DNA of 64,000 nucleotides from Flavobacterium praedii (GTDB lineage: Bacteria > Bacteroidota > Bacteroidia > Flavobacteriales > Flavobacteriaceae). The position numbers were made by a program, and so were the translations under genes. The stretch covers positions 872,001-936,000 of the forward strand of contig NZ_CP113948.1 of NCBI RefSeq assembly GCF_026810365.1, given 5' to 3'. A model generated the notes under the pieces. It saw nothing but the letters and a program-made list of their open reading frames with translations, made no database searches and was not told the DNA's origin. Numbering within the stretch: the stretch's first letter is position 1; each line of letters starts with the position of its first letter. Positions 12,307 to 38,952 of this stretch are shown piece by piece.

Positions 12307-12421
12307 GGGCGTGACCCCGTTGAGCAAAGGGGCTTACTCGTAGTGCCGCTCATACAGCCCCTTTGCTCAACGCTGTCGGGCTATACGCACTACTTCGGTA
12401 GCTTGCTTCTATCCCTCACGC
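12307..12421 (-). repeat. Structured element family 1, copy 1 (minus orientation)
   Basis: Reading the minus strand, closing arms GCGTGA / TCACGC. The first inner stem is GGG-ATAGAA-GC ... GC-GTATAG-CCC capped by CTAC-CGAA-GTAG. The second hairpin is GTTGAGCAAAGGGGC / GCCCCTTTGCTCAAC, 15 perfect pairs. This is a three-way-junction layout. Same family as 15641-15753 and 38847-38952. Lies between two uspA genes. Confidence 0.75.
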
Positions 12422-12535
12422 AAAACCGATGAACAAGACGTTTAATGCATTAAAACAAAATAAGAACCTTGTTTTTTATCGGTTCAAAATCATAAAAATA
12501 TATTTTCATCAATTAAAAATTTAAATACCTTAGTA

Positions 12536-13369
12536 ATGAAAAAGATTTTATTTCCCACCGATTTTTCCGAAGTTGCCAATAATGCTTTTATCCATGCATT
12601 GCATTTTGCTAAAATTGTAAACGGAGAAGTTTTATTGTTGCACACTTTTGATTTGCCAATAGTAGACAATCAATTTATTCCAGATAATTATTATACTATT
12701 TTTGATTCCTTACAATTGGCACAATTTGATATGTTTAAGGAAGAAATTCCAAAACTCCGAGAAATGGCCATTGCCCATCATCTAGATCATATAAAATTAA
12801 GCCATAAACTTGTTGATGGTGACCTAATTTATGCTATCAAACAAGCAGTCATAGACGAAAGAATAGATTATGTGGTTATGGGAACCTCCGGTGCTACAGG
12901 TTGGGAATCTTTTTTTATAGGTTCAAATACCGGTGCTGTGGTAACTGCTGTCGATGTTCCTGTTTTATGTGTACCTATCGAAGCAAAATACTCAAAAATT
13001 GAAACGATTGGCTTTACAACCAGATTCAGAGATAAAGATAAAGCAGCTTTAAAGCAAGTAATCAAAATGGCAAAAAAAACGCATGCGGTTGTAAAATGTT
13101 TGTATGTAAAAACTAGTAAATCAGATGTTAAAGATGATACTGTTGCTCAATGGAAAATAGAATTCGAAAAAGAACCTGTTCAGTTTTCAATTGTAAAAAG
13201 TGATCTTGTAAAAGAAACAATTTTAGATTTTATCTCCCACAAAAACATAGATACTTTGGCAATGATTACCCATAAACGTAATTTCTTCTCCGAGCTATTT
13301 AAACCAAGTTTGACTCAAAAATTCTCGAATATATCAACCATTCCTGTTTTGGCAATGCACGAAGAATAG
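12536..13369 (+). CDS. Universal stress protein, two tandem UspA domains
   Basis: 277 residues, MKKILFPTDFSEVANNAFI at the start, closely similar to the gene at 11457. The first Usp domain keeps the nucleotide motif GTSGATGWESFFIGS (G-x2-G-x9-G-S). The second begins IETIGFTTRFRDKDKAAL and ends FSNISTIPVLAMHEE. Tandem duplication with divergence. Cytoplasmic; probable role in starvation, redox or envelope stress by family membership only. Confidence 0.88.
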   Translation: MKKILFPTDFSEVANNAFIHALHFAKIVNGEVLLLHTFDLPIVDNQFIPDNYYTIFDSLQLAQFDMFKEEIPKLREMAIAHHLDHIKLSHKLVDGDLIYAIKQAVIDERIDYVVMGTSGATGWESFFIGSNTGAVVTAVDVPVLCVPIEAKYSKIETIGFTTRFRDKDKAALKQVIKMAKKTHAVVKCLYVKTSKSDVKDDTVAQWKIEFEKEPVQFSIVKSDLVKETILDFISHKNIDTLAMITHKRNFFSELFKPSLTQKFSNISTIPVLAMHEE

Positions 13370-13450
13370 AATTCAATTAATTTGTTATTTTGCCATTGCA
13401 ATTGATATTGCCATTGGCTTTCCCTACATTTGTATATCATTAAAACAAGC

Positions 13451-15223
13451 ATGGAAATATACAAAAGTTATAGTCAAAATTATTTAGAGGAGTTAAAATC
13501 AATAAATACAAAATACAATAGCATTAGTTTTCTGAGGTTTATTAGTATTTTGCTTTTTTTAGGAAGTTTATTTTATTACATAAAAACTAGTGAATCAGTA
13601 TTTGTCATGGCAGCAATTATACTCTTTGCTAGTTTTCTTTTTTTGATGCGAATCCACTCGAAACTTTCTTTTCAAAAGAAAATTAAAACGGCATTGGTAG
13701 AAATCAACAACAATGAAATTAATTATTTAGAAAGAAAATCAATCCCTTTTGAAAATGGTTCCGAATTCAATGATTTTCATCATCCTTATGCTTATGATCT
13801 TGATATTTTTGGAGATCATTCGTTGTTCCAAAATCTAAACAGAACCGCCACTTTCATAGGAAAAAAAACTTTGGCCAAAAAGCTTTTAACCCTTTTACAC
13901 AATGATGAAATTCTAAAGAATCATCTGGCAGTGCAGGAATTAAAAGAAAAATTAAATTGGCGTCAGGAGTTTTTGGCTCTTGCCAAAATAGGGCAGGATA
14001 ATCAATCGGTATATTCGTCTTTACTACAATGGAGTCGATTTGAAAGTACACCTTTATCAAAAGTTAGTGTTGCTTTGTCTTTCCTTTTTCCAATAGGTTT
14101 TTTTTGTAATTTGTTGGGTTATATTTTGACCTCCAATCCTGTTTTTTTATCGTATTTAACCTTTTTCTTTGTGTTGAATATGTCTTTTTTAGGCAGATTT
14201 TATAAAAGAATAACAATAGAAATTGCCAACGCCGAAAATATTGATGTTATCGTTGGACAATATAGTTTATTGGTTCAGAAAATAGAAAACGAAACTTTTC
14301 ATTCTGATAAATTAGTTGATTTACAACAAAAACTGAATTTTCAAAATCAGAAAGCAAGTGTACATCTTAAGAAATTATCGGGCTTATTCTCCAATATGGA
14401 TACGATCGGAAATTTTGTGACAGGTATAGTACTCAATGGAACCTTCCTTTTTAACTTCCACGTTCTGAAATCGCTGATCGCTTGGAAAAAACAGCATACT
14501 ATTGTTCTAGAAGAATGGTTAGAAGTAATTGGAGAATTCGAAACACTCAGTAGTTTGGCGAATTTCTCTTTTAATAATCCGGAGTTTGTGTATCCAACTT
14601 TAAACACTAATTTTAAAATTGATTTTTCTAACTTAAGTCATCCTTTGCTGAATCCAGCAACTAGAGTAGGGAATGAGGTGCAGTTTCATCCACAATCGTT
14701 TATGATTTTGACGGGTTCGAATATGTCGGGCAAAAGTACTTTTTTGCGTAGTTTAGGAATCAATATGGTGCTTTCGGGGATGGGAGCTCCCGTATGCGCG
14801 AGTCAGGCCAATGTACATCCGCTACCTGTTTTGGTTTCTATGCGATTATCCGATTCCTTGTCCGATAGTGAATCCTATTTCTTTGCCGAAATCAAGCGCT
14901 TAAAGCAAATTATGGATGAATTGGAAATGAATCCTGCCTTTGTGCTTTTGGATGAAATTTTAAGAGGAACCAACTCCGATGACAAACGAAATGGAACGAT
15001 TGAAGTGGTCAAAAAAGTAATTTCCAAAAAAGCCATTGGTGCCATTGCTACACATGATATTGAAGTTTGTTTGACCACCAATGATTATCCAGATATTCTA
15101 ACCAACAAATGCTTTGAAGTCGAAATCAGCAACGATGAACTGCATTTTGATTACACACTTCGTAACGGTATTTGTAAAAACAAAAGCGCTACTTTTTTGA
15201 TGAAGAAGATGGGGGTTATTTAA
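13451..15223 (+). CDS. Membrane-anchored MutS-like ATPase
   Basis: 590 residues from ATG 13451 (MEIYKSYSQNY). Two hydrophobic helices near the N terminus (FLRFISILLFLGSLFYYI and VFVMAAIILFASFLFLM) and two more around residues 210-250, then a MutS-type C-terminal ATPase: Walker A LTGSNMSGKSTFLRS, the SESYFFAEIKRLKQI signature, Walker B FVLLDEILRGTNSDDK and THDIEV. The mismatch-binding N-terminal domains of true MutS are absent, so this is a MutS-related protein of unknown role rather than the repair enzyme. Single gene; ends before a repeat-rich gap. Confidence 0.82.
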   Translation: MEIYKSYSQNYLEELKSINTKYNSISFLRFISILLFLGSLFYYIKTSESVFVMAAIILFASFLFLMRIHSKLSFQKKIKTALVEINNNEINYLERKSIPFENGSEFNDFHHPYAYDLDIFGDHSLFQNLNRTATFIGKKTLAKKLLTLLHNDEILKNHLAVQELKEKLNWRQEFLALAKIGQDNQSVYSSLLQWSRFESTPLSKVSVALSFLFPIGFFCNLLGYILTSNPVFLSYLTFFFVLNMSFLGRFYKRITIEIANAENIDVIVGQYSLLVQKIENETFHSDKLVDLQQKLNFQNQKASVHLKKLSGLFSNMDTIGNFVTGIVLNGTFLFNFHVLKSLIAWKKQHTIVLEEWLEVIGEFETLSSLANFSFNNPEFVYPTLNTNFKIDFSNLSHPLLNPATRVGNEVQFHPQSFMILTGSNMSGKSTFLRSLGINMVLSGMGAPVCASQANVHPLPVLVSMRLSDSLSDSESYFFAEIKRLKQIMDELEMNPAFVLLDEILRGTNSDDKRNGTIEVVKKVISKKAIGAIATHDIEVCLTTNDYPDILTNKCFEVEISNDELHFDYTLRNGICKNKSATFLMKKMGVI

Positions 15224-15265
15224 AAAAAGTGTTCAGTATTCAGTTTTTTAGTATTCAGTCTCAGT

Positions 15266-15300
15266 AATCTTTGTCAAAGTTTTGAACTTTGACAAAGATT
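15266..15300. repeat. Perfect inverted repeat, CTTTGTCAAAG type
   Basis: Two 16-base perfect arms (AATCTTTGTCAAAGTT and its complement) around a TTG loop. REP-like. From 15371 a short tandem of GCAAAG units at 10-11 base spacing follows (15371, 15382, 15392). Confidence 0.8.
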
Positions 15301-15497
15301 GATTTGCACCATTTTCTGCAAGGTTTTTTTTAACCGAGATTCCGCAATAGGAAATATTTCACGAAGATGCGCAAAGGATTCGCAAAGACACGCAAAGGGA
15401 AATCTAATTCTTTGAATGGAGGTTAAAAAACTTTGTGATTCTTCGCTAATTCTTCGTGTAACTCTGCGTAATAATGTCTAATGCTGAATCCGGGTTT

Positions 15498-15549
15498 AAC
15501 CTTGTAGGTATTGAACCTAAGGATAAACGACCAATATACCTACAAGGTT
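15498..15549. repeat. Inverted repeat, AACCTTGTAGGTAT type
   Basis: 14-base perfect arms at 15498-15511 and 15536-15549 around a 24-base loop. A partial further copy (AACCTTGCAGG) follows directly. Third kind of palindrome in this gap. Confidence 0.75.
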
Positions 15550-15640
15550 CAAAAAAAACCTTGCAGGGTAATCTAGGAGCAATTGATTTAGTTCTTTTGA
15601 AAAACAAAATCTTATAATTTTCCTTAAAGTTCTTGTATAC

Positions 15641-15753
15641 GCGTAAGTGATAGAAGCTAGCTACCGAAGTAGCGCGAATAGCACGACCCCCGATAGGAAA
15701 AAGGGCAATGACGACAAAGAAACGAGCCCTTTTTTCTAGCGGGGGTTACGCCC
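15641..15753 (+). repeat. Structured element family 1, copy 2
   Basis: Closing arms GCGTAA / TTACGC. First stem GTG-ATAGAA-GC ... GC-GAATAG-CAC capped by GCTAC-CGAA-GTAGC. Second hairpin CCCCCGATAGGAAAAAGGGC pairs with GCCCTTTTTTCTAGCGGGGG with two mismatches. The closing pair that is G-C in copy 1 is A-T here, and the GGG/CCC of copy 1 is GTG/CAC here. Confidence 0.78.
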
Positions 15754-15820
15754 ACACAAGCTTAATCGGACTGACGAGGTAAATAATTTTAAACCGATCT
15801 ATTTGTTCAGTTAAGTTCAA

Positions 15821-15858
15821 AAAAAAACCAAAACTCTGGTTAGGAATTTCGGTTTTTT
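15821..15858 (-). terminator. Terminator downstream of dnaN
   Basis: On the minus strand AAAAAACCG-AAATTC ... GAGTTT-TGGTTTTTT forms a hairpin ending in a T run, 44 bases after the dnaN stop. Rho-independent type. Confidence 0.6.
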
Positions 15859-15901
15859 AAATATAAAAAATGGTTTTGGTTAGTTTAGTATTTTGAGGTA
15901 A

Positions 15902-17020
15902 CTAGCTGTTTAGCATTACAGGCATCACTAGCATGGTTACGGTTTCGCCATCTTCTAGTCCATCTATCGGAGTTAGAATACCAGCTCTGTTTGGTAATGA
16001 CATTTCAAGCATTATCATATCAGATTGCAAATTATTCAACATTTCGGTTAAGAAACGAGAGTTGAAACCGATTTGCATATCATCTCCTTGGTAATCACAA
16101 GTCAATCTTTCTTCGGCCTTGTTGGAGTAGTCAATATCTTCGGCAGAAATGTTTAATTCGGCTCCAGCCACTTTCAAACGAATTTGGTGTGTGGTTTTGT
16201 TAGAGAAAATCGCAACACGACGAACTGAGCTCAAGAATTGAGAACGATCCATCATCAATTTGTTTGGATTTTCTTTTGGAATAACGGCTTCGTAATTTGG
16301 ATATTTTCCATCGATTAAACGACATAATAAAATGTAGTTGTCAAAAGAGAAAGTAGCGTTCGAATCGTTGTATTCTATTTTTACTTCAGCATCGGATGTG
16401 CCTAAGATACTTTTTAAGATGTTCAAAGGTTTTTTTGGCATAATGAACTCAGCTACTTGAGATGCTTTTACATCAGTACGAGCATATTTTACCAATTTGT
16501 GAGCGTCTGTTGCCACAAAAATCAAACCTTCTGGAGAAAACTGGAAGAAAACACCAGACATTACCGGACGCAAATCGTCATTTCCAGCTGCAAAAATCGT
16601 TTTGCTGATAGCAGTAGCCAAAACATCTGCAGGAACTAGTGTTACCGATGGTTCGTCAAGGTTTACTGATTTTGGGAATTCCTCTCCTGGAGCATACGCC
16701 AACGCATATTTTCCAGAGTTTGAACTGATTTCTATAGTGCTGTTTTCTTCAACCGTAAAAGTTAAGGGTTGTTCTGGAAAGGTTTTAAGGATTTCCAACA
16801 ATAATTTTGCGGGTACTGCAACACTTCCTTTACTGGTTGAGTCAATAGCCAATGTGGCAGACATTGTAGTCTCCAAATCGGATGCCGAAACAGTTAATTC
16901 GTTATTATTTAATTCAAATAAGAAGTTATCCAAGATTGGTAAAGTATTGTTATTATTGATAACGCTACCTAAAACTTGTAATTGTTTTAATAAGTACGAA
17001 CTCGATACTATAAATTTCAT
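15902..17020 (-). CDS. dnaN: DNA polymerase III beta subunit (sliding clamp)
   Basis: Ring-shaped processivity clamp that holds the replicative polymerase on DNA; two subunits of three similar domains. 372 residues, MKFIVSSSYLLKQLQVLGSVI at the start, domain 1 with LPILDNFLFEL and TVSASDLETTM, ending LVMPVMLNS. Family length and full domains. Flavobacteria usually keep dnaN away from dnaA, as here (no dnaA or origin-like cluster seen). Transcribed alone from a -7 like element at 17091. Confidence 0.96.
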   Translation of the reverse strand: MKFIVSSSYLLKQLQVLGSVINNNNTLPILDNFLFELNNNELTVSASDLETTMSATLAIDSTSKGSVAVPAKLLLEILKTFPEQPLTFTVEENSTIEISSNSGKYALAYAPGEEFPKSVNLDEPSVTLVPADVLATAISKTIFAAGNDDLRPVMSGVFFQFSPEGLIFVATDAHKLVKYARTDVKASQVAEFIMPKKPLNILKSILGTSDAEVKIEYNDSNATFSFDNYILLCRLIDGKYPNYEAVIPKENPNKLMMDRSQFLSSVRRVAIFSNKTTHQIRLKVAGAELNISAEDIDYSNKAEERLTCDYQGDDMQIGFNSRFLTEMLNNLQSDMIMLEMSLPNRAGILTPIDGLEDGETVTMLVMPVMLNS

Positions 17021-17090
17021 CTCTATTATTTTGTTTTTAAGGGTGTGCTTTTTCAGAATTAAAACTTAGAATACACTTTACAAATATATT

Positions 17091-17098
17091 GTAAACTA
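17091..17098 (-). promoter_or_regulatory. Possible -7 element of dnaN
   Basis: Minus strand TATATTTG fits TAnnTTTG and lies 70 bases before the ATG. No TTG at the expected upstream distance, so weak. Confidence 0.3.
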
Positions 17099-17127
17099 TT
17101 CTAGAAAACCAACTTTTTTATTAACAT

Positions 17128-18813
17128 CTATTTGCTGTATTTTCTTTTTCGAAGGAATGTAAATCCAAAACCAAATAGTAACAAAATTAGAATTGGAAGC
17201 CCGATAGTTAGGAACTGTGTAAAGGTATAGTTTTTATATACTTTTTCTTTATCTAATAATGGTAAGTCAAGATCTTTGCTACGAATGTTAATAAGTCCTG
17301 TATCATCCAATAGATAATTCACACAATTCATCATAAAATCTTTGTTGTCATATAAATTCCCAGAACGTTGGTCATAGCCTAATTCTATTGGCTGTCCCGC
17401 TTTATCCAGTTGGTTTTTTATAATATCCCCGTCTGCAATCACAATCATTTTGCTTTCTTTTCCATTGGTAACAAATGATTTGTCTCCAAAAGGAAGTACA
17501 CGATTCTCAAACATCGAATGAAAAGAACCTTCTAATAAAACCGCTAACGAAATGTTTCCTTTATTCAGGTAATCAGTTGGAGCAGTTTGTTCCGAAACCA
17601 TATTTAGGTTAATTTCTACTGGTGTTCCTATTTTTTTGGAATAGGAAGATGATTGTAATAATACCGTTTTCTTGATTCCATTTTTTAAGGTATCCATCGC
17701 ATTGGCAAAATCAAATTTGATACCACCTAGATTTTTTACAATGGGATGTTTACTGATAGGATATACTTGAGGTGCAAATTTCCAGTTGAAATCCTGGTAT
17801 TGTGTTCCGCTTCCTTGTTCTCCACTGGCCAGTTTTATAGGACTTCCTTGTTCGTCTTTGACCAAATCTGGATTGATACGCACCCCGTATTTGAAGAACA
17901 TATCGTTTAAGTTCAGATCCTTTGGAAATGCCAATGTGGCTCCAGATGGGTTGTAAAGACTGTCCATTTCGGCATTGACTTGATCGATTAGCCACAGGGT
18001 TTTTCCTCCGTGTATGATGAACTGATCCAGAACCATTTTTTCTTCATCGGTAAAAGCTTCAGTAGGTTTGGCTATGACTGCCAAATCGTAATTTTGTAAT
18101 GATTTTAATGTTCCTTCAGGGTTTTTGGCAACCGAATCCAAGGTGAATGGACCAATGAAGTAACTTTCGCGAACTTGCATCAGAAACTTGGCGATATGTC
18201 TTTCTTGAAGTTCTCCATTTCCTTTGATGATGGCAACTTTCTTTTGTTTGTCTTTAGAAATTTTATTTATTCCATCCGAAATCGAATATTCAAGATGCTG
18301 AACCGATCCAATTACTTTTTGGGTGGTAGAAGCGCCCATAATGTTTTTTAACAGCGGAATATTCACCTCTTTATTATTGTAAACAGCAATTGCCCAAGGA
18401 AAAACCATCGATTGAGATTGTTTTCCTTTATCATCAACAGTTATGTTTATTGGCGTTAAGCCTTTTCGATACAACTCTTTAATATTGTCCATGCTCTCGT
18501 CTTTGTTCTCCAATGGATCTACAAATTCGATAATGATATTAGAATTATAGGCTTGAAATTCTTCCAAAAGTTGTTTGGATTCCATTTGTAATCGCTTGAA
18601 TTCTGCTGGTAATTCACCTTGCAGGTATACTTTTATGGATAGTGGATTCTTTACCTCTTTAAGAATTTTTAAAGTTGTAGGGGAAAGAGTATAGCGATGA
18701 TCTTGAGTTAAATCAAAACGATGAAAAACGAAATTGCTAATTATATTTATAAGGAAAACAATTGCAACAGTGATCAATAATGATTTGGCGTTTTTTAAAG
18801 GGAATGCTCTCAT
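17128..18813 (-). CDS. gldG: Gliding motility ABC component GldG
   Basis: Periplasmic/membrane component of the GldA-GldF-GldG ABC transporter first found as needed for flavobacterial gliding. 561 residues: one N-terminal membrane helix (about 11-31, SLLITVAIVFLINIISNFVF), a large extracytoplasmic domain of the ABC_transp_aux / GldG kind (KVAIIKGNGELQERHIAKFL, GGKTLWLIDQVNAEMDS), and a C-terminal helix (LTIGLPILILLLFGFGFTFL) followed by RKRKYSK. Its start overlaps the gldF stop by one base, so the two are translationally coupled. Confidence 0.92.
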   Translation of the reverse strand: MRAFPLKNAKSLLITVAIVFLINIISNFVFHRFDLTQDHRYTLSPTTLKILKEVKNPLSIKVYLQGELPAEFKRLQMESKQLLEEFQAYNSNIIIEFVDPLENKDESMDNIKELYRKGLTPINITVDDKGKQSQSMVFPWAIAVYNNKEVNIPLLKNIMGASTTQKVIGSVQHLEYSISDGINKISKDKQKKVAIIKGNGELQERHIAKFLMQVRESYFIGPFTLDSVAKNPEGTLKSLQNYDLAVIAKPTEAFTDEEKMVLDQFIIHGGKTLWLIDQVNAEMDSLYNPSGATLAFPKDLNLNDMFFKYGVRINPDLVKDEQGSPIKLASGEQGSGTQYQDFNWKFAPQVYPISKHPIVKNLGGIKFDFANAMDTLKNGIKKTVLLQSSSYSKKIGTPVEINLNMVSEQTAPTDYLNKGNISLAVLLEGSFHSMFENRVLPFGDKSFVTNGKESKMIVIADGDIIKNQLDKAGQPIELGYDQRSGNLYDNKDFMMNCVNYLLDDTGLINIRSKDLDLPLLDKEKVYKNYTFTQFLTIGLPILILLLFGFGFTFLRKRKYSK

Positions 18814-19538
18814 TACGATTTAATAGATTTTAAATTAAAGACTGTGAACGAAAGAAACAAAACTGCGATACTAATAAAATAGATTACGTCTCGTGTGTCT
18901 ATAACGCCTCGACTCATGCTCTTGTAATGATCTTGCATTCCGAAATAAGAAATGAAATTAGAAAAACTAGGTAATACAGAGGCCAACCCTTGAAATCCAA
19001 AATAGAAAAAGAAACAAAGGAAAACAGCAATGATAAAGGAAACAATTTGATTCTCGGATACAGACGAAGTAAAAATTCCAATAGCAGAATAAGCTGCAAT
19101 CAAGAACAATAATCCAAAATAAGAACCTAGAGTGCTTCCTAAATCTAGATTTCCTTCGGGTGAGCCTAAATTCCAAACCACTTCTACATAAATAAAAGTT
19201 GGAATGATTGCCATTATAATTAATAGAAATGCACCCAAGAATTTTCCGTTTACAATTTCCCAAAGACTAATTGGTTTTGTGAGTAACAACTCAAGTGTGC
19301 CTTGCTTTTTTTCATCTGAGAAACTGCGCATGGTTACAGCGGGAATTAAGAAAATTAAAATCCAGGGAGCCAATGTGAAAAAAGGCGTTAAATCGGCAAA
19401 GCCCGTATTTAAAATATTATATTCACCTTGGAAAACCCAAAGGAATAATCCATTTCCGATAAGGAAAAGTGCAATTACTAAATATCCGATTGGTGAACCA
19501 AAAAAGGATTTTATTTCGCGAAATACGATTGACTTCAT
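18813..19538 (-). CDS. gldF: Gliding motility ABC permease GldF
   Basis: Six-helix ABC-2 type permease, 241 residues. MKSIVFREIKSFFGSPIGYL start, PAVTMRSFSDEKKQGTLELL (the conserved cytoplasmic loop of this permease class), LTKPISLWEIVNGKFLGAFL. Works with GldG (directly downstream) and the ATPase GldA, which is not in the window. Upstream gap 19539-19622 holds two direct copies of AAAAGTTTAATGTTT. Confidence 0.92.
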   Translation of the reverse strand: MKSIVFREIKSFFGSPIGYLVIALFLIGNGLFLWVFQGEYNILNTGFADLTPFFTLAPWILIFLIPAVTMRSFSDEKKQGTLELLLTKPISLWEIVNGKFLGAFLLIIMAIIPTFIYVEVVWNLGSPEGNLDLGSTLGSYFGLLFLIAAYSAIGIFTSSVSENQIVSFIIAVFLCFFFYFGFQGLASVLPSFSNFISYFGMQDHYKSMSRGVIDTRDVIYFISIAVLFLSFTVFNLKSIKS

Positions 19539-19622
19539 TTTATATTTTTTATTTTAAAAAGTTTAATGTTTAAAAAGTTTAATGTTTAAAGTTTATTTGA
19601 ATTTGTTTCCAATTAAACAACT

Positions 19623-19919
19623 TTAAACCAAAGAAACTAATTTATCAACACTCCAAGCTTCTGGTTTTGCATTAAATAATTGTTTGGTAAAGGTCCAAAC
19701 GGTATCAAAAAGGGCTGAATTTCGATAATTTTCCAAATCCATTTCTGTTTCCCAATAACTATAGGTAAAGAAAATACTTTTATTTTCTTTGTCCTGATAC
19801 AGCTCTAAAAAACGATTACCAGGAGCATTTCGTATTTGATCTTTCATTAATTCAAAGTTTTCAAGAAAAGCTGGGATGTTTTTCTCGTGAAAACTCAGTT
19901 TTACAATTCGTACAAACAT
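19623..19919 (-). CDS. Antibiotic biosynthesis monooxygenase (ABM) domain protein
   Basis: 98-residue ferredoxin-like fold protein of the ABM/YgiN type: MFVRIVKLSFHEKNIPAFLE, then APGNRFLELYQDKENKSIFF, TYSYWETEMDLENYRNSALF. Such small proteins act as cofactor-free oxygenases or heme-degrading enzymes; substrate unknown here. Single domain, no signal peptide. Downstream of the SAM hydrolase on the same strand, 225 bases away. That gap is AT-rich with a TCTCTCTCTCT run and repeated AATCTGCA words, no gene. Confidence 0.82.
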   Translation of the reverse strand: MFVRIVKLSFHEKNIPAFLENFELMKDQIRNAPGNRFLELYQDKENKSIFFTYSYWETEMDLENYRNSALFDTVWTFTKQLFNAKPEAWSVDKLVSLV

Positions 19920-27743: not shown

Positions 27744-27801
27744 AAGAGGTTTCATTCTAAAATAGGTTCTACCCTCAACTTTGTGGGTAAAAGTTTTTCG
27801 C

Positions 27802-27829
27802 CACAAATTACACAAATTATCACAAATTC
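27802..27829. repeat. Short tandem of CACAAATTA words
   Basis: Three imperfect 10-base units reading CACAAATTA. A similar tract (CACAGATTTCACAAATTATC) is at 40827-40850. Low information; no gene nearby. The rest of 27830-28000 is AT-rich without a feature. Confidence 0.5.
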
Positions 27830-28001
27830 TATAAACTCAAAATTTGAATTACACGAATTATAAATAGTTAACTTGGATTTACTAACAGTTGAATAGTTGG
27901 TAGTAAAATATTAATGTGCTTTAATTTGTGGTTCACCCTTTTTTAATTTTTGTAAAACCTACACAATTAGTGGTAATACCCTAAAATAATACGTTTTTTA
28001 A

Positions 28002-28041: not shown

Positions 28042-28167
28042 AGTTTTGAAATTAGATTAGATTTATACCTTACAGGTTTTTTTTAACCTGTTTGGTATTA
28101 TTTTACGGACTAAGGAATTAACGGTTGTAATCGGTAGTGTTTCCTAAAACAGACTATTTTGGCTATT

Positions 28168-28340: not shown

Positions 28341-28347
28341 AGTAGGC

Positions 28348-28722: not shown

Positions 28723-28845
28723 ATTTAATTTATTGTTTTTTATTGTTTATATGTAATTCGCATAATTACTGTTGGTGTTTTCGACCTATTGAAATTTAAG
28801 CTCCTTTTATATTTTAACTTTCGGCAAAGGTATGGGAAAGTTTAG

Positions 28846-30608: not shown

Positions 30609-30615
30609 TAGTTTA

Positions 30616-31023: not shown

Positions 31024-31125
31024 TTGTTTTGAATATTCTGTTATGCGTTTTGGGTTATGCGTTTTTTTAGATTTCTCCATCAGTTTAATAACTGATTACT
31101 AAAAACTGAACACTGACCACTTCTT

Positions 31126-32709
31126 TTACTTTGGATTAAAAACCAAGAATGGAATGATCATTTCTTCCAATGAAATTCCACCGTGTTGATAAGTGTTTTT
31201 GTAATAACTCACATAATGATTGTAGTTGTTAACATAAGCCAAAAATAAATCATTTTTTGCAAAAATATAGGAACTACTCATATTGATGGCAGGCAAACCA
31301 ATGTTTTTAGGTTCTTTGATGGCATATACATCTTTTTGTTCGTATGTCAAACTACGCCCAGTTTTGTAACGTAAATTCAAACTCGTGTTTTTGTCGCCTA
31401 CTACTTTTGATGGATTTTTTACATTAATGGTGCCATGATCAGTCGTCAGAATTAATTTGAAGCCTAATTTTTGTGCTTGTTGAATAATTTCGAGTAAAGG
31501 TGAGTTTTTAAACCAACTTAAAGTTAAAGAACGATAGGCTTTATCATCGGAAGCGAGTTCTTTTACCACATCCATTTCGGTTTTAGCGTGCGAAAGCATA
31601 TCGACAAAATTATACACTACAGTTACAAGGTCATTGTCTTTTAATGATTTAAAACTTTCTGCTAGTTTTTTTCCACCGGCTAGATTGGTTATTTTGAAAT
31701 AATCTTGTTTTAAATCTAATCTCAGGCGCTTAATTTGAGCGGTTAAAAATTCAGCTTCGAATAAATTTTTACCTCCTTCTTCTGGATCATTTTTCCAATA
31801 CTGAGGAAACTGTTTTTCCATTTCTAGAGGCGTTAAACCGGAGAAAATTGCATTTCTTGCATATTGTGTAGCCGTAGGAAGGATAGAGAAATAAGGTACT
31901 TCTTTTTCGAGTTTGTAATAATTACCTACGACACTTTCAAAAGCTTTCCATTGATCATAACGTAAATTGTCGATAACAACAAAAAGTACAGGTTTAGCTT
32001 TGCTCAGTTCGGCGTCGCCTCGGGTGTCTTTTTTCAGAATCTCTGGGACAACTAATTCTTTAAACAAATTGTGAGATTGTATGGGTTTATCTGCTTTTGG
32101 TGCAAACCAATCTTCGTAGTTCCGTTCGATGAATTTGCCAAATTGGGAATTGGCTTCTACTTTTTGGGATTCTAGGATTTCAATCATTCCTTGGTCATTA
32201 ATATTCTCCAATTCTAGTTCCCAAAAAATAAGTTTTTTATACAATTCAACCCAATCTTCATAGGAGTTGACCATCGCCATTTCCATAGTGATTTTTCGAA
32301 ATTCTTTTTGATAATCCAAAGTTGTTTTTTGAGAAATCAAACGGGAATGATCTAAGTTTTTCTTTAAACTCAACAAAATTTGATTTGGATTAACAGGTTT
32401 AATCAAATAATCTGCAATTTTGGAACCAATGGCTTCTTCCATAATATACTCTTCCTCACTTTTGGTAATCATAATCATAGGGATGGAAGACTTTTTTTCT
32501 TTCATTTCTGATAATGTTTCCAAACCACTCATTCCAGGCATATTTTCATCAAGAAAAACGATGTCAAAATTATTTTCTTCAAAAATATCAATTGCATCAC
32601 GTCCATTGTTACAAGTAGTTACGCTGTAATTTTTTTTCTCTAGAAATAGTATATGTGGTTTAAGTAAATCGATTTCATCATCAACCCAAAGTATTTTTAT
32701 GTTGTCCAT
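31126..32709 (-). CDS. porX: PorX, response regulator with PglZ phosphatase-like domain
   Basis: Regulator of the type IX secretion system. 527 residues: receiver domain at 1-120 with acidic D10 D11, phospho-acceptor Asp54 (FLDENMPG) and Lys in YLIKPVN; a helical linker; then a PglZ alkaline-phosphatase-superfamily domain with VIDNLRYDQWKAF (nucleophile region), YNFVDMLSHAKTEMD and TTDHGTINVKNPSKVVGDKN (metal ligands). In Porphyromonas it works with PorY and SigP, and its PglZ part cleaves cyclic or linear oligonucleotides. Adjacent to tsaE and ald, a flavobacterial arrangement. No PorY here. Confidence 0.92.
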   Translation of the reverse strand: MDNIKILWVDDEIDLLKPHILFLEKKNYSVTTCNNGRDAIDIFEENNFDIVFLDENMPGMSGLETLSEMKEKKSSIPMIMITKSEEEYIMEEAIGSKIADYLIKPVNPNQILLSLKKNLDHSRLISQKTTLDYQKEFRKITMEMAMVNSYEDWVELYKKLIFWELELENINDQGMIEILESQKVEANSQFGKFIERNYEDWFAPKADKPIQSHNLFKELVVPEILKKDTRGDAELSKAKPVLFVVIDNLRYDQWKAFESVVGNYYKLEKEVPYFSILPTATQYARNAIFSGLTPLEMEKQFPQYWKNDPEEGGKNLFEAEFLTAQIKRLRLDLKQDYFKITNLAGGKKLAESFKSLKDNDLVTVVYNFVDMLSHAKTEMDVVKELASDDKAYRSLTLSWFKNSPLLEIIQQAQKLGFKLILTTDHGTINVKNPSKVVGDKNTSLNLRYKTGRSLTYEQKDVYAIKEPKNIGLPAINMSSSYIFAKNDLFLAYVNNYNHYVSYYKNTYQHGGISLEEMIIPFLVFNPK

Positions 32710-33011
32710 TTAATTTTAAATTTTAGTGCAATTTAATAGTATAGATCTAAATATATATTAAAAATAGTATAAAGTTGATTGATAAAAAAATAATATGTTT
32801 TATTGGTTACAGTACTTTTAAAACACGGATTTAAATTTATTCATTAAAAATCAGGGAAGAATGGGTTTAAATTTAGTGAAAATAATTTAATTTGAGGTTG
32901 GTAATTAATAGGATAGCTTTAAATACCATTTTTTAGTCTAATATTGGTCTAATTGAATTTTTCTATTATTTTTCTATCCGTAATTTATTATTATATTTGA
33001 ACTTTGTAAAC

Positions 33012-33091
33012 TAGCCCTGATAGAAACGGAAATCCTTTATTTTTTTTCTTTAAAAAAATAAAGATTGAAGTGGATAGCAGGAATAGCTCCT
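33012..33091 (+). repeat. Structured element family 2, copy 2
   Basis: TAGC-CCTG-ATAGAA-AC ... GT-GGATAG-CAGG-AATAGCT, then an inner hairpin AATCCTTTATTTTT / AAAAATAAAGATT. The arms CCTG / CAGG replace CCCG / CGGG of the 28168 copy: a compensatory change. The rest of 32710-33188 is AT-rich with no gene or promoter I can support. Confidence 0.7.
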
Positions 33092-33188
33092 AATGAAAAC
33101 AAACTAATTTTAGAATATGAGATGTGCATTAACTACTAGTTGTTATGCGAATTACATATGACAAATAAAAAGCAATAAATATTAACAT

Positions 33189-33935
33189 ATGAAATTACTA
33201 GAAGGAAAAGTTGCCATAATTACTGGCGCAAGTCGTGGAATTGGAAAAGGAATTGCAGAGATTTTTGCTAAAAACGGAGCAAACGTTGCATTTACGTATA
33301 GCTCATCGGTAGAGTCAGCTTTGGCTTTAGAAAATGATTTGAATGCTTTGGGAATAAAAGCAAAAGGGTACCAATCCAATGCAGCCGATTTTAATGAAGC
33401 TCAAAAATTTGTAGATGCTGTTTTGGCTGATTTTGGTACAGTTGATATATTGATTAACAATGCCGGAATTACTAAAGATAATTTATTGATGCGTATGTCA
33501 GAGGCTGATTTTGATCAAGTTATCGATGTTAACTTGAAGTCGGTTTTTAATATGACAAAAGCAATTCAAAAAACATTTTTGAAACAACGTTCTGGTTCGA
33601 TTATCAATATGAGTTCTGTAGTTGGAGTAAAAGGAAATGCTGGTCAAACAAATTACGCTGCTTCTAAAGCTGGTGTTATTGGTTTTTCAAAATCAGTGGC
33701 TTTGGAATTGGGTTCTCGTAATATTCGTTGTAATGTAATTGCGCCTGGTTTTATTGAAACTGAAATGACAGCTAAACTTAGTGAGGATGTTGTAAAAGGT
33801 TGGAGAGAAGGGATTCCGTTGAAACGTGGTGGTTCTACTGAAGATGTTGCCAATGCATGTTTGTTCTTTGCGTCTGACATGAGTGCTTTTGTAACGGGCC
33901 AAGTATTGAATGTTTGCGGAGGAATGCTTACTTAA
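33189..33935 (+). CDS. fabG: 3-oxoacyl-ACP reductase
   Basis: NADPH-dependent short-chain dehydrogenase of fatty acid elongation. 248 residues. Cofactor loop VAIITGASRGIGKGIAEIF, NNAGITKDNLLMRMSEADFD, catalytic Ser in IINMSSVVGVKGNAGQTNY, Tyr and Lys in YAASKAGVIGFSKS, and PGFIETEMT. All features of FabG. Single gene; the downstream gap has an 11-base-arm inverted repeat. Confidence 0.94.
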   Translation: MKLLEGKVAIITGASRGIGKGIAEIFAKNGANVAFTYSSSVESALALENDLNALGIKAKGYQSNAADFNEAQKFVDAVLADFGTVDILINNAGITKDNLLMRMSEADFDQVIDVNLKSVFNMTKAIQKTFLKQRSGSIINMSSVVGVKGNAGQTNYAASKAGVIGFSKSVALELGSRNIRCNVIAPGFIETEMTAKLSEDVVKGWREGIPLKRGGSTEDVANACLFFASDMSAFVTGQVLNVCGGMLT

Positions 33936-33954
33936 ATAATTTAATGATTTAATA

Positions 33955-34010
33955 ATTGAAAGATTTAAAGATTTGTATTCTTCAATCTTTTAATTTTTCA
34001 ATCTTTCAAT
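33955..34010. repeat. Inverted repeat ATTGAAAGATT / AATCTTTCAAT
   Basis: Arms at 33955-33965 and 34000-34010, with internal AAAGATT / AATCTTT pairing as well. REP-like hairpin between fabG and the next gene; it could also end fabG transcripts. Confidence 0.6.
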
Positions 34011-34017
34011 CAACTAT

Positions 34018-36045
34018 ATGACAACAAACACAATTCTATTACTACTACTTTCTTTACTAATAGCGGGTGGTTTGTCGTTTTTTCAATATTTATACAAAGT
34101 CAAAAACAAATCGAATGTGCATTTGTTTTTGACTTTTTTGCGTTTTTTTAGTATTTTTTCGGTGCTGTTGCTTTTGATAAATCCCATCATTACGACTAGT
34201 ACAACTGAAATTATTAAAACACCTTTGCCAGTAGTGGTCGATAACTCTAGTTCTATTTCTTTTTTGAATTCCAAAGATAAAGCTTTGGAATTAGCCCAAA
34301 AGTTAAAGTCAAATAAGGCGCTTCAAGAAAAATTTGACGTGCAATCGTATCTATTTGATGCTGATTTTAGGCAATCGGATAGTATGACTTTTAAGGGAAC
34401 TCAAACCAATTTGGATTTGGTTGCCAAAAATCTGAAGAGCATCTATAAAAATGCATTTTATCCAACGGTTATTATCACTGATGGAAATCAAACTTCTGGG
34501 AATGATTATGTCTATAGTTTTGATGAAAATAATAAAGTGTATCCTTTGGTTTTAGGCGATACCACAAAAGTATTGGATTTGAAAATCAATCAGCTGAATG
34601 TTAATAAGTATGCTTTTCTGAAAAATAAATTTCCAGTTGAAGTGTTTTTGCAATATTCAGGGGATAAAAGTGTAACCGCAAATTTTAGTATTATACAAGG
34701 AAATGAAGTTTTGCATAAAGAAAGCGTTTCTTTTTCTCCAACTAAGAAAACAGCAGTCCTAAATGTGCTTTTGCCTGCCAATAAAGTAGGATTGCAAATT
34801 TATAAAGCTAAAATTGAATCTAAGGAAAGCGAAAAAAACACCTTTAACAACATCAAGAATTTTGCTGTTGAAGTAATTGACCAAAAAACAACCGTTGCAA
34901 TTGTATCTGCTATAAATCATCCTGATATTGGTGTTTTTAAAAGAGCCATTGAATCCAATTTGCAACATAAAGTAGTATTGGTTAAACCAAGTGATGTGAA
35001 ATCATTAGAAGATTATAACGTGTTAATTTTGTATCAGCCCACTACTGATTTTAAGTCTGTTTTCGAATTGAATAAAAAAGCAAATCTAAATACCTTTATC
35101 ATAACAGGAACGAGTACTGATTTTTCGTTTTTGAATCAACAACAAAATAATTTTGTTTTTAAAATGAGTGGTCAGGAAGAAGATTATTTGGCAGATTTTG
35201 ATTCGCAGTTTAATCTTTTTGCAGTGGATAATTTAGGGTTCGAAAATTTACCTCCTTTGCAGAATAATTATGGTTCAATTACCACCAATGGGGAAGTAAA
35301 TGTGTTGCTTTCTGCTAAAATCAGAAATATAGATACCAAAGCCCCTTTATTGTCTTTTACGGAGAATCAAGGAAAAAGAGCCGCTTATTTATTTGGAGAA
35401 AACAGTTGGAAATGGAGTTTGCAAAGCCATATCGACAATCAGTCTTTTGAAAAATATGATATTTTTGTAAATAAGATTATACAATATTTGGCTTCTAATA
35501 ATGCCAAAAAATCATTGGTTGTCAATCACGAAAGCTTCTACAATTCGGGTGAAGCCATCGAAATTACGGCGCAATTTTTCAACAAGAATTATGATTTTGA
35601 TGAAAAGGCACGTTTGACAATTGCGGTGACCAACGTTAAAACGAAGCAAACCAAGAACTTCGACCTTTTAAAAGGGAACAATACATATAAAGTAAATCTT
35701 GACGGACTTTTGGCAGGAAGTTATAATTTTTCGGTTAAGGAATTGAATTCCAAAACTTCGTATTCAGGACATTTTGAGATTCTGGATTTTGATATTGAAA
35801 AGCAGTTTGTAAATCCAGATGTTCAAAAGTTGAATCAATTGGCAGTACAAACTAAAGGAGCTGCTTTTTATCCCAATCAAATAGATGCTTTGATAAAAAC
35901 ATTATTGGAGAATGAAGAATATAAAGCTGTTCAAAAAGAGGTTGTAACCAAATCTCCTTTGATAGATTGGAAATGGTTGCTAGTTTTGATTGTTGTTTTT
36001 CTTTCTACAGAATGGTTTGTAAGGAAGTATAATGGGATGTTGTAG
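34018..36045 (+). CDS. VWA-like membrane protein
   Basis: 675 residues: two N-terminal membrane helices (TILLLLLSLLIAGGLSFF and FFSIFSVLLLLINPIITTS) and one C-terminal helix (WLLVLIVVFLSTEWFV). Between them is a periplasmic domain starting LPVVVDNSSSISFL, a D-x-S-x-S metal site of von Willebrand A domains, followed by VIITDGNQTSG. A later part looks like immunoglobulin-type strands (GLLAGSYNFSVKELNSKTSY). Similar architecture occurs in BatA-type and other VWA membrane proteins of Bacteroidota; function unknown. Follows fabG by 82 bases; co-transcription uncertain. Confidence 0.75.
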   Translation: MTTNTILLLLLSLLIAGGLSFFQYLYKVKNKSNVHLFLTFLRFFSIFSVLLLLINPIITTSTTEIIKTPLPVVVDNSSSISFLNSKDKALELAQKLKSNKALQEKFDVQSYLFDADFRQSDSMTFKGTQTNLDLVAKNLKSIYKNAFYPTVIITDGNQTSGNDYVYSFDENNKVYPLVLGDTTKVLDLKINQLNVNKYAFLKNKFPVEVFLQYSGDKSVTANFSIIQGNEVLHKESVSFSPTKKTAVLNVLLPANKVGLQIYKAKIESKESEKNTFNNIKNFAVEVIDQKTTVAIVSAINHPDIGVFKRAIESNLQHKVVLVKPSDVKSLEDYNVLILYQPTTDFKSVFELNKKANLNTFIITGTSTDFSFLNQQQNNFVFKMSGQEEDYLADFDSQFNLFAVDNLGFENLPPLQNNYGSITTNGEVNVLLSAKIRNIDTKAPLLSFTENQGKRAAYLFGENSWKWSLQSHIDNQSFEKYDIFVNKIIQYLASNNAKKSLVVNHESFYNSGEAIEITAQFFNKNYDFDEKARLTIAVTNVKTKQTKNFDLLKGNNTYKVNLDGLLAGSYNFSVKELNSKTSYSGHFEILDFDIEKQFVNPDVQKLNQLAVQTKGAAFYPNQIDALIKTLLENEEYKAVQKEVVTKSPLIDWKWLLVLIVVFLSTEWFVRKYNGML

Positions 36046-36208
36046 GTTTCAGAATAATCAGTGCTTGGAGATTAGTGATGAATAACTTCAAAAAAAATAA
36101 ACTATCTTAGCTTTATGAAATCGCCATAACAAATTGCTTGTTGCAAACAAAAACTATAAATAAAAAGCGATCCCATATAGGACCACTAACAAAATATTTT
36201 TTGCATAT

Positions 36209-36544
36209 ATGAAAATGAAAGAGTCAATACAAATGAAATTAACAGAATTTTTGGCATTATGCAAAAGCCATAATGTTAAGAATATTTATGCTTTTGGATC
36301 TGCTGTGACTGAAAATTTCAATGATGAATCTAGTGATATCGATTTGCTAATCGAAATTGATAACGAAGATCCAATAGAGCGTGGAGAAAATTTGATGGAT
36401 ATTTGGGATAAGCTCGAAGTGTTTTTTCAAAGAAAAGTTGATTTATTGACTAATTCCTCTATAAAAAATCCAATCCTCAGAAAAAATATAGACACCACAA
36501 AAATTTTACTTTATGACGGAAAAGAGCAAAAAGTATCTTTCTGA
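36209..36544 (+). CDS. mntA: MNT-domain nucleotidyltransferase antitoxin (MntA-like)
   Basis: 111 residues, antitoxin of the HEPN-MNT family; in known pairs it adds AMP to the HEPN toxin. The nucleotidyltransferase motif is GSAVTENFNDESSDIDLLIE: GS, 11 residues, then DID. The usual spacing is 10, so there is one extra residue. The C-terminal half (WDKLEVFFQRKVDLLTNSSI) is family-like. Its end overlaps the start of the toxin gene by 32 bases, a strong sign of a coupled pair. Several in-frame ATGs near 36209 leave the exact start open. Confidence 0.85.
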   Translation: MKMKESIQMKLTEFLALCKSHNVKNIYAFGSAVTENFNDESSDIDLLIEIDNEDPIERGENLMDIWDKLEVFFQRKVDLLTNSSIKNPILRKNIDTTKILLYDGKEQKVSF

Positions 36545-36845
36545 TGTCTTAATGGCGATACACTTAATTCGCGAATTTACTTTTGACATTATAGATTTTA
36601 ATATTTATGATAATGACAGAAAAACTCAAAGTGCCGTCGAAAGACAATTGGTAATTATTGGGGAGGCTTTGAATAAATTAAGGCAGACTGAAGCTGAAAT
36701 TGTAATTGAAAATGACAAACAAATTATTGGTTTTCGCAATCGTTTAGTTCACGCTTATGGCAGTATTGATAATTCCATTGTTTGGGCAATTATAAATCGT
36801 CATTTAGAAAATTTAAAAAACGAAATCGAGAATTTAGAAAGTTAA
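36513..36845 (+). CDS. hepT: HepT-like HEPN toxin (DUF86)
   Basis: 110 residues, HEPN ribonuclease toxin. The catalytic pattern R-x4-H is seen in RNRLVHAYG (Arg to His with four between), followed by Tyr, the residue AMPylated in studied pairs. All-helical: MTEKSKKYLSDVLMAIHLIR start, QSAVERQLVIIGEALNKLR. Overlaps mntA and is probably transcribed with it. Nothing suggests inactivation. Confidence 0.87.
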   Translation: MTEKSKKYLSDVLMAIHLIREFTFDIIDFNIYDNDRKTQSAVERQLVIIGEALNKLRQTEAEIVIENDKQIIGFRNRLVHAYGSIDNSIVWAIINRHLENLKNEIENLES

Positions 36846-36875
36846 TAAAAACTGTTTGCTAAAAGAAATACAATT

Positions 36876-37772
36876 ATGGATTTTAGACTAAAAGTATTCT
36901 TCACTGTTGCAACCCGATTGAGCTTTACCAAAGCGGCAGCTGAATTGTTTATTACACAACCTGCAATTTCCAAGCATATTCAGGAATTGGAAGAAGAATA
37001 CAAGATTAAACTTTTTGAAAGAAACGGTTCTAAAATAGCACTTACAAATGCTGGCGAAGTGTTGCTGAAGCATACCAAAAACATTTTTGAAATTTATAGA
37101 GAAATTGATTTTGATATGAGCACGTTTATCAATGAACGCAAAGGAGTGTTGCGTTTGGGAGCTAGTACTACTATTTCTCAATATATTATTCCGCCAGTAT
37201 TGGCTCGCTTTCATCAGAAGTTAGAGTCTGTAAAAGTTAGTTTACTTAACGGAAATACGGAGCAAATTGAAAATGCTTTGTTGAACAAAGAAATTGAAAT
37301 TGGAATTGTAGAAGGACAATCCAAAAATCAATCTATAAAGTACACTCAATTTATTAAAGATGAGTTGGTTTTGGTTTGTAGTGCCAATAATCCACTAGTA
37401 CAAAAAAAAGAAATTATTCCGACTGATCTAAAATCTTTACGATTTGTCGTGCGAGAACAAGGGTCTGGAACACTTGAAGTTATAGAATATGCTTTAAAAC
37501 CGTTCCATATTACAATTGATCAATTACAGGTCGAGATGCAGTTGGGTAGTACGGAGAGTATAAAGTCCTATTTGATGAATTCTAGTTGTGTTGCTTTTTT
37601 ATCTATTCATTCCGTTTATAAAGAGTTAAAAAACAGAGAGTTGCAAGTTATTGATGTCGATAATTTAACTATTGAACGTTTTTTTTATATTATTACTTTA
37701 CAAGGAAAAACAGATTCCCTTTCGGAGTTGTTTGTAAAAAATATTTCAAGCTATTATAATTTAAAGTTATAG
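36876..37772 (+). CDS. LysR-family transcriptional regulator
   Basis: 298 residues. N-terminal winged helix-turn-helix (FTKAAAELFITQPAISKHIQ, FERNGSKIALTNAG) and a two-lobed effector domain (LRLGASTTISQYIIPPVLAR, EIGIVEGQSKNQSIKYTQF). Lies directly upstream of the YeiH-type transporter in the same direction, with 68 bases between, so it likely controls it; similar LysR-YeiH pairs are common. The effector may be a sulfur compound, but this is inference only. Confidence 0.9.
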   Translation: MDFRLKVFFTVATRLSFTKAAAELFITQPAISKHIQELEEEYKIKLFERNGSKIALTNAGEVLLKHTKNIFEIYREIDFDMSTFINERKGVLRLGASTTISQYIIPPVLARFHQKLESVKVSLLNGNTEQIENALLNKEIEIGIVEGQSKNQSIKYTQFIKDELVLVCSANNPLVQKKEIIPTDLKSLRFVVREQGSGTLEVIEYALKPFHITIDQLQVEMQLGSTESIKSYLMNSSCVAFLSIHSVYKELKNRELQVIDVDNLTIERFFYIITLQGKTDSLSELFVKNISSYYNLKL

Positions 37773-37840
37773 TGGATTATTTTTAACGATTGGTCTTGAT
37801 TGTGTTTTATATCGACCTTTGTAGTGTTAAAAATAAAAAA

Positions 37841-38803
37841 ATGAAAATTAAAAACAGTAATGCCCCGATATTATATAAAATCAATACCAAGTTACAACGA
37901 GGTATTTTTGTTTTGTTATTGCTTCTTTGTTTGTTTCCTATTATTTCACCGCCTATAGCTTTGTTGTTGGGTTTGGTTGTTGCCAATCTTTCAGGGCATC
38001 CTTTTTTGCATTTAAATCATAAGGCCACAAATATATTGTTGCAGGTTTCTGTAGTAGGACTAGGGTTTGGAATGAATGTGCATAGTGCGGTAGCAGCAGG
38101 CAAAGAAGGTTTTCTTTTTACTGTTGGTTCTATCGTTATGACCATTGCTTTGGGAACTTTACTGGGTAAATGGTTTGCTATTCAAAAGAAAACGTCACAT
38201 CTTATTTCATGTGGTACAGCGATATGTGGAGGTAGCGCTATTGCTGCGATTGCTCCAGTAATCCAATCGGATGAAAAGCAAACATCGGTAGCATTGGGAG
38301 TAATTTTTATACTAAATTCGATTGCTTTGTTTGTTTTTCCTGCAGTGGGACATTGGTTGGATATGTCACAGAATGATTTTGGATTGTGGTGTGCCATTGC
38401 CATTCATGATACAAGTTCTGTTGTTGGGGCAGCCAATAAATATGGAGCAGAAGCTTTACAAGTTGCAACAACGGTAAAATTAGCAAGAGCTTTGTGGATT
38501 ATTCCCGTTGCATTGATTACGGCAGTCGTTTTTAAAAACAAAACAAGCAAACTGAAGATTCCTTATTTTATAGGGTTGTTTATTTTGGCGATGATTTGTA
38601 ACACATATTTTTCTCCAGTTGCCAGTATTGCACCATATATAGTTTCCATTGCTAAATTAGGACTTACGGTTACATTGTTTTTGATAGGAGCAGGGTTGAG
38701 TGGTTCCGTATTGAAATCAGTGGGATTGTTGCCATTATTGCAGGGAGTTTTGCTTTGGGTATTTATTGCAGTTGTTGCTTTATTAGCAATTTTATATTTT
38801 TGA
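37841..38803 (+). CDS. YeiH / UPF0324 family putative transporter
   Basis: Integral membrane protein, 320 residues from ATG 37841 (MKIKNSNAPILYK), about ten helices. Family signatures: PIALLLGLVVANLSGHP, VSVVGLGFGMNV, LISCGTAICGGSAIAAIAPV, AIHDTSSVVGAA. Often annotated as a putative sulfate exporter; substrate not proven. Seventeen upstream codons are outside the family. A structured repeat follows its stop. Confidence 0.88.
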   Translation: MKIKNSNAPILYKINTKLQRGIFVLLLLLCLFPIISPPIALLLGLVVANLSGHPFLHLNHKATNILLQVSVVGLGFGMNVHSAVAAGKEGFLFTVGSIVMTIALGTLLGKWFAIQKKTSHLISCGTAICGGSAIAAIAPVIQSDEKQTSVALGVIFILNSIALFVFPAVGHWLDMSQNDFGLWCAIAIHDTSSVVGAANKYGAEALQVATTVKLARALWIIPVALITAVVFKNKTSKLKIPYFIGLFILAMICNTYFSPVASIAPYIVSIAKLGLTVTLFLIGAGLSGSVLKSVGLLPLLQGVLLWVFIAVVALLAILYF

Positions 38804-38846
38804 TGCATGATTTTTTCAATCGTAAAGGTCTTGTCTAAATGGTTTT

Positions 38847-38952
38847 GCGTGAGTGATGGCAGTGGAGCTCTTTTATTGATCCTTTTTTTTGGGATCAATA
38901 AAAAGCGGGAACGAACAGCACGACCTGAAGTTTTTCACGAATGGGCACGCCC
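38847..38952 (+). repeat. Structured element family 1, copy 3
   Basis: Closing arms GCGTG / CACGC. First stem starts GTG and returns GAACAG-CAC. Here the long hairpin is the first one (TTTTATTGATCC / GGGATCAATAAAA) and the second is short. Conserved ends GCGTGAGTGAT and AGCACGACC...GGGCACGCCC match copies 1 and 2. Lies between convergent genes and may end both transcripts. Confidence 0.75.

Follow-up and report, generated by a model that had tools for sequence, protein, structure and literature searches.

Correia/NEMIS elements, ERIC sequences and MITEs are familiar examples of short repeats between genes that have terminal inverted repeats and give folded transcripts, and integron attC sites recombine as a folded single strand whose letters vary while its hairpin shape is kept. 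The described family closest to the elements analyzed here is Flavo-1 (Rfam RF01705), which entered the record in 2010 as a probable RNA and to our knowledge has no assigned function. In the sections of Weinberg 2010 (PMC2864571) concerned with it, Flavo-1 is rated a probable RNA and not cis-regulatory, the relevant passages of Guerin 2021 (PMC9723704) place its matches sense or antisense to transcribed regions, with many outside them, and a portion of PMC9029176 counts it among abundant sRNA families. Within the part of the open-access literature covered, we recognized no paper describing a modular structure or replacement of Flavo-1. For Y1 transposases, excerpts of PMC6006769 report that Bacteroidetes subclass 2.6 is flanked by atypical structured repeats, and a table in a REP survey (PMC12306157) includes two Flavobacterium genomes. 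What is new here is the behavior of the elements, namely their modules, a gain and probable replacement, and not the Flavo-1 core.

Type B elements and their relation to Flavo-1

The window, meaning the whole 64,000-nt stretch of DNA analyzed, had been found in a sequence-only reading to hold three copies of a structured intergenic element, and their positions and stems were borne out when we re-read it. An Rfam search of the window returned Flavo-1 three times at gathering scores, and one further match appeared at E<=1. The elements are as follows, with outer frames (I-III) and inner hairpins (m1-m6) named as described further below.

12307..12421, minus strand: copy 1, 115 nt, of type B (inner hairpin m3 in frame II)
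P1 12417-12421 with 12309-12313, P2 12378-12415, P3 12315-12375, minus strand: parts of copy 1, from the alignment and covariance model
15641..15753, plus strand: copy 2, type B, 113 nt, short-loop P3 type
P1 15641-15645 with 15747-15751, P2 15647-15684, P3 15687-15745, plus strand: parts of copy 2, from the alignment and covariance model
38847..38952, plus strand: copy 3, in which frame II holds inner hairpin m2 and P3 is short; Rfam matches Flavo-1 at 38842-38929 (gathering score)
33009..33088, plus strand: canonical Flavo-1, frame I with inner hairpin m1; Rfam match at gathering score
28165..28254, plus strand: Flavo-1 relative, frame I with inner hairpin m6; Rfam match at gathering score
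9242..9386, plus strand: sub-threshold Flavo-1 relative (26.8 bits), frame III with inner hairpin m5

The expectation of a new structured family held in part. Copy 3 is covered by Rfam Flavo-1, at 53.7 bits against a gathering cut-off of 42 bits, while copies 1 and 2 had no Rfam Flavo-1 match even at E<=1. A covariance model of 47 type B members, trained with copies 1 and 2 and without copy 3, scored the three copies at 127, 105.1 and 27.2 bits, respectively. Copies 1 and 2 share the Flavo-1 core, GAT-N-G with N'-AGC, and type B therefore extends Flavo-1; loci matched by Rfam carry this core by construction.

Further copies, for which a genome search had been proposed, proved numerous. Searching the source genome (4,168,457 bases, one contig) by BLAST with copy 1 gave 41 matches, one of them merely the reversed arm of another copy, and a P2 pattern allowing up to three mismatches gave 31 matches versus 0 for the reversed control. 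Merged, these searches defined 47 distinct type B elements of 113-115 nt, all of which were kept in the analysis, including L072 with its broken P1. A genome search with the covariance model added three, bringing the family to at least 50 elements, of which 47 were aligned. Flavo-1 itself had at least 103 genomic matches at E<=0.001, copy 3 among them, in the 150 of 1274 candidates that were scored, and none of these overlapped the 47 B elements. Likewise, none of the 11 B elements in five 20 kb stretches (100 kb) reached the Flavo-1 gathering score. Type B and Flavo-1 together amount to at least 153 known elements, one per 27 kb. Among named records, the exact B pattern was matched only in Flavobacterium fluviatile, in a search that may omit records very close to the window, and the genus is accordingly probably Flavobacterium.

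On the 5' side, type B elements are flanked by a weak TCTTG-like motif (by eye), and on the 3' side by AAAT-ATTTT. The B elements in L056, L079, L046, L072 and L081 are preceded by a near-identical CTTAACTT-AATGACATT-like stretch, which in some of them follows a GCGTCTT...GCGAGA repeat; this is a separate repeat family adjoining the B elements. The frame I elements of L030, L010 and L021 have imperfect direct repeats of ~20-25 nt (like CAAAAAAGCC-AATCTTTCT) on both sides. Elsewhere in the window, 36112-36216, 27764-27863, 33141-33202 and 28728-28828 match scattered places in relatives and are probably further repeat families. A strong hairpin at 2336-2408, whose Rfam match to an animal microRNA family (30.5 vs 67 bits) is surely chance, may be a REP-type palindrome.

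Fold, covariation and folding strand

The 47 type B sequences aligned over 115 columns with a mean identity of 80%, and their consensus is a three-way junction in which P1 (columns 1-5 with 109-113) pairs across about 100 nt and encloses P2 (7-44) and P3 (47-107). Both sides change in 31 of the 35 consensus pairs. Paired cells make up 97.2% of type B versus 81.4% of shuffles, and double-change cells, which count sequences and not independent events, number 235 versus 50.4 in shuffles (0/500 reach 235) and 20-53 in controls with slid partners. The claim that selection acts on the folded structure is thus strongly supported by covariation against both kinds of control and by copy number. One structural detail needed correction: the stretch ATAGAA/G(A,T)ATAG, taken as an internal loop in the sequence-only reading, contains two base pairs. 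These pairs, columns 11:40 and 12:39, covary across the 47 elements and belong to the core in which GAT-N-G pairs with N'-AGC; the unpaired core bases are nearly invariant across the alignment.

Mispairs identify the strand that folds. GT/TG occurred in 55 cells and AC/CA in 4 (in 13 vs 4 of the 35 pairs), or 36 vs 3 without columns 57:97. Because GT on one strand is AC on the other, this excess indicates that the written strand is the folding strand. The written strand also folds better than its complement in 41/47 type B elements with RNA energies and 46/47 with DNA energies, and in 24/30 and 27/30 canonical Flavo-1 elements, respectively. Folding of one strand fits RNA and single-stranded DNA alike.

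An intrinsic terminator and a replication-strand bias were both set aside: the foot of the fold had no T run directly adjacent in the flanks inspected by eye, and strand counts per genome eighth gave no clear pattern (origin and terminus not located).

Modules, their probable exchange, and orthologous sites

Around the core we distinguished outer frames I (TAGCCC...GGATTAGCTCC), II (GCGTGAG...GTCACGCCC) and III (window 9242) as well as six inner hairpins, m1-m6. Frame I carries m1 (31), m4 (9), m5 (1) and m6 (5), frame II carries m3 (47), m2 (9), m4 (2) and m5 (1), and frame III carries m5 (1). The loci counted here are 63 of the 103 Flavo-1 matches, together with two window elements and all 47 of type B; 6 of the 65 non-B loci have an unclassified end, and L013 was counted as m1. 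The m4 hairpin is nearly identical in L095 (frame I) and L113/L119 (frame II). Within type B, P2 was unlinked to the P3 stems (Mantel r -0.06, p 0.78) and to the P3 loop (r -0.16), with the P3 stem and P3 loop as a linked control (r 0.50, p 0.0005). Kinship would produce such linkage, not erase it. Two P2 types (5 and 3 members) have P3 stems more alike than the whole set (distance 0.22 and 0.25 vs 0.36 overall), which counts against full independence of P2 and P3. The elements seem to swap hairpins among themselves. We regard it as firm that the superfamily around Flavo-1 is real, strongly structured and modular.

At the 3' end, a longer extension (like ACACGAGCTTTTGCGAACTGACGAAGTAAATGATTTT) replaces the short AAAT-ATTTT in L044, L054, L062 and L076 and in the G030/G094 copies (L237, L242). 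The 3' extension also differs between orthologs at L232:7440 and L234:859.

Three close relatives, G030, G094 and G056, mostly 76-91% identical over long alignments, were compared with the source genome. The site of copy 3 is empty in 3/3 of them: its flank alignments overlap by 5 bases in G030 and 3 in G094 and lie 3 apart in G056, versus 170 in the window.

38802..38971, plus strand: stretch gained with copy 3, ~170 nt, absent in G030, G094 and G056

Sequences at this site in G029, G010 and G047 carry no element either; G003 and G025 were without a flank pair, and in G046 the flanks were distant only. The simplest reading of these alignments is that copy 3 was recently gained in the lineage of the source genome. 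The gained stretch exceeds the copy by ~45 nt on the 5' side and 19 nt on the 3' side, and is bracketed by TTTTT at 38797-38801 and 38972-38976, which is ambiguous as a duplication in a T-rich site. A canonical Flavo-1 was gained at L232:8646, where the ends are not clean. One clean gain is thus what the claim of mobility is built on.

Other elements persist. G030 has copy 1 at the same site, its P3 altered at the tip and still paired, and the Flavo-1 at 33009..33088, for which there are spanning alignments in G047, G003 and G029, lies at the orthologous site in G030 with both inner-hairpin arms changed and still paired. For copy 2, the covariance model had no match at the corresponding place in G030, where the gap is not clean. 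Persistence at some sites across species could reflect a site-bound function.

At certain shared sites the relatives have another type of element. The clear case is L232:7440, where the P3 found in G030 and G094 is 0.43 and 0.44 identical to the ortholog and 0.92 and 0.93 identical to another own copy. Both outer flanks were verified here (84-89% identical, 60 to 900 nt out). The nearest 110 nt are 0.64-0.66 identical on the 5' side and 0.76-0.80 on the 3' side; since the near 5' flank has itself diverged, the case is made by the resemblance to another copy and not by the low identity. Four further cases are probable: L234:859 in G094 (P3 0.69 to the ortholog vs 0.89 to another copy), L234:859 in G030 (an m5-like element by eye), L232:18211 in G056 (0.54 vs 0.80, one flank verified), and the element at 28165 in G030 (frame retained, inner hairpin different, by eye). 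The claim of replacement is therefore founded on one clear and four probable cases, 859 being counted separately in two relatives, and loss followed by re-insertion at the same place looks identical to exchange in place.

Ranks of whole elements are less informative. In ten ortholog comparisons, the ortholog ranked 7, 8, 10, 11, 2, 1, 22, 25, 21 and 2 of 47, with identities of 0.62-0.90, and non-orthologous own pairs average 0.70. As a control, the nearest other own copy has a median identity of 0.83 over the whole element and 0.82 over P3. Any copy thus has a near relative in its own genome, so that most of these ranks mean little and the three at L234:14293 decide nothing. Plain descent, defined as the ortholog ranking first or within 0.01 of first, fits 3/10 comparisons (859 in G056, 18211 in G030 and 12307 in G030). 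Both flanks were verified in 5/10 comparisons (ranks 11, 2, 25, 21 and 2 of 47). The flank search found no orthologous flank pair for L232:979 and L234:14293; one flank was verified at L234:14293 and at L232:18211, the second flank of the latter being placed in G030 with 1,068 bases between.

Explanations and comparison with known systems

We favor, with a probability of roughly 55%, the reading that these are modular, non-autonomous mobile repeats that act as a folded single strand, with a putative trans-acting factor. The interspersed repeats would consist of hairpins that can be swapped within a conserved frame made up of the P1 closing stem, P2 carrying the GAT-N-G/N'-AGC core, and P3. They would spread, and at times be overwritten, in the form of a folded single strand, always of the same polarity, that the putative factor recognizes, and recombination or template switching between copies would exchange their hairpins. 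We infer that the folded strand is an intermediate and that a dedicated enzyme is involved; the strand is somewhat more probably DNA than RNA. Of the three options that the sequence-only reading had offered for the fold, the evidence agrees best with a mobile element recognized as a fold and least with an ordinary expressed RNA, a DNA hairpin being possible.

The elements could instead be functional non-coding RNAs or UTR elements, kept at each locus since the transcript folds and binds something. Rfam labels Flavo-1 as 'sRNA', Weinberg 2010 (PMC2864571) rates the motif a probable RNA, a fold on one strand is as expected of RNA, and at some sites an element persists from one species to another while its hairpins carry compensating changes. 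Gene context argues otherwise. The sequence-only reading had placed all copies after gene ends, which is right for the three window copies but not for the family, as 9/47 members lie between two gene starts. By the same simple ORF calls, no type B element among the 47 falls inside an ORF of at least 120 aa, and the strands of the upstream and downstream genes relative to the element are -- 15, +- 13, ++ 10 and -+ 9. Many of these elements (28/47) have their 3' end close to the stop codon of a gene that converges on them, at a median of 33.5 nt. The strand spread of 63 Flavo-1-like loci is similar with more -- (two have an unclear side), and among the pooled 110 elements antisense to both neighbors is commoner than sense to both (42 vs 24, p 0.036). 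This near-random gene orientation, together with Flavo-1 on either strand, and often outside transcribed regions, in the transcriptomic results presented in part of Guerin 2021 (PMC9723704), speaks against an ordinary regulatory RNA, as does a different hairpin type at a shared site. We consider a functional RNA possible and rather unlikely.

A dedicated recombination of folded strands, in which well over 100 chromosomal sites would keep their elements while P2, P3 and the 3' extension are now and then replaced from what would be a genome-wide hairpin pool, is an unlikely account in our view.

A third alternative is that the elements are REP-like and moved by a Y1/HUH (RAYT) transposase, comparable to Bacteroidetes subclass 2.6. 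High copy number, intergenic position and a fold on one strand would suit it, and atypical REPs are described for subclass 2.6 in the pages of PMC6006769 on that group. Y1 transposases occur in 68/101 genus genomes, and their presence overlaps weakly with that of type B (both 55, type B only 19, Y1 only 13, neither 14; Fisher p 0.017, uncorrected for genome size and kinship). Against this, Flavo-1 and Y1 presence are not associated (64, 29, 4, 4; p 0.43), and G030, a draft assembly that is 100% complete by record, has 0 Y1 matches yet at least 36 B elements. The same count speaks against a non-autonomous IS200/IS605 element, for which genomes rich in copies would be expected to encode a Y1 transposase. 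A search for type B only in the 30 top Y1 loci gave 0 matches. Twenty weaker RAYT-like loci (81 kb) hold one weak type B match, ~0.8 kb from the gene, and 4 Flavo-1 matches vs ~2 expected at source-genome density, 3 of them >1 kb from the Y1 gene; in L267, Flavo-1 lies ~180 nt from the end of the RAYT-like gene. The only Y1 transposase match of the source genome (L031:1183-1791, C1:1569213 region) has no Rfam Flavo-1 match within 1.5 kb, and by eye its own short palindromes on both sides are unlike these elements. We set RAYT/Y1 mobilization aside because neither presence/absence nor neighborhood tests linked it consistently to the elements, although two results favored it weakly. Given the atypical repeats of subclass 2.6 in the cited part of PMC6006769, this explanation is weakened only, and we judge it quite doubtful.

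Other candidate factors and carriers were also set aside. Reverse transcriptase (RVT_1) is present in 5/8 element-bearing genomes, including all four high-copy ones, and in 4/8 genomes without a Flavo-1 match, of which G033 has one weak B match; its absence from 3/8 element-bearing genomes led us to reject it as a required factor and is not what a retron-like RNA would predict. The source genome has two closely spaced reverse-transcriptase genes (C1:1450270-1450944 and 1453473-1454147) in open frames of 424 aa each. Phage or plasmid carriage was rejected because no type B was found in viral contigs (one exact P2 pattern) or in plasmids or phages (distant BLAST with copy 1).

The weakest explanation, in which template-switch correction of quasi-palindromes at replication, and not functional selection, maintains the complementarity of the arms, would give paired P3 changes with free sequence and mosaic copies, but does not predict the 55 to 4 excess of GT over AC mispairs, nearly invariant unpaired core bases or P1 pairing across ~100 nt, and we consider it very improbable.

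Returning to the mobile folded repeat, our results suggest a modular superfamily of repeats, able to move and recombine, of which Flavo-1 is the part visible so far. If so, the annotation of Flavo-1 would change, its presence on either strand in the transcriptome study would be explained, and the elements would offer a test system for the exchange of parts among bacterial structured repeats.

Type B resembles REP/REPIN sequences with RAYT (TnpAREP) as high-copy, intergenic, non-autonomous folded repeats. It differs in being a branched 115-nt fold for which Y1 is not needed, and no conserved GTAG/GTGG, the GT[AG]G found at the hairpin foot of REPs, lies just 5' of the 47 B elements. Compared by general description, integron attC sites share the variable hairpin letters and kept shape; these elements are instead scattered, about one every 27 kb, with no cassette array seen. 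MITEs have terminal inverted repeats and a target-site duplication; in type B, P1 gives an inverted repeat of 5-6 nt, and the TTTTT that brackets the one clean insertion is ambiguous because the site is T-rich. The short terminal inverted repeat, the branched interior and the interchangeable hairpins set type B apart from Correia/NEMIS, ERIC and MITEs. The closest likeness is to Flavo-1, which shares the GAT-N-G/N'-AGC core and intergenic position and occurs in 93/101 genus genomes, with type B matches in 74/101. The Rfam model of Flavo-1 is one 76-nt hairpin, to which type B adds the P1 closing stem and the P3 hairpin.
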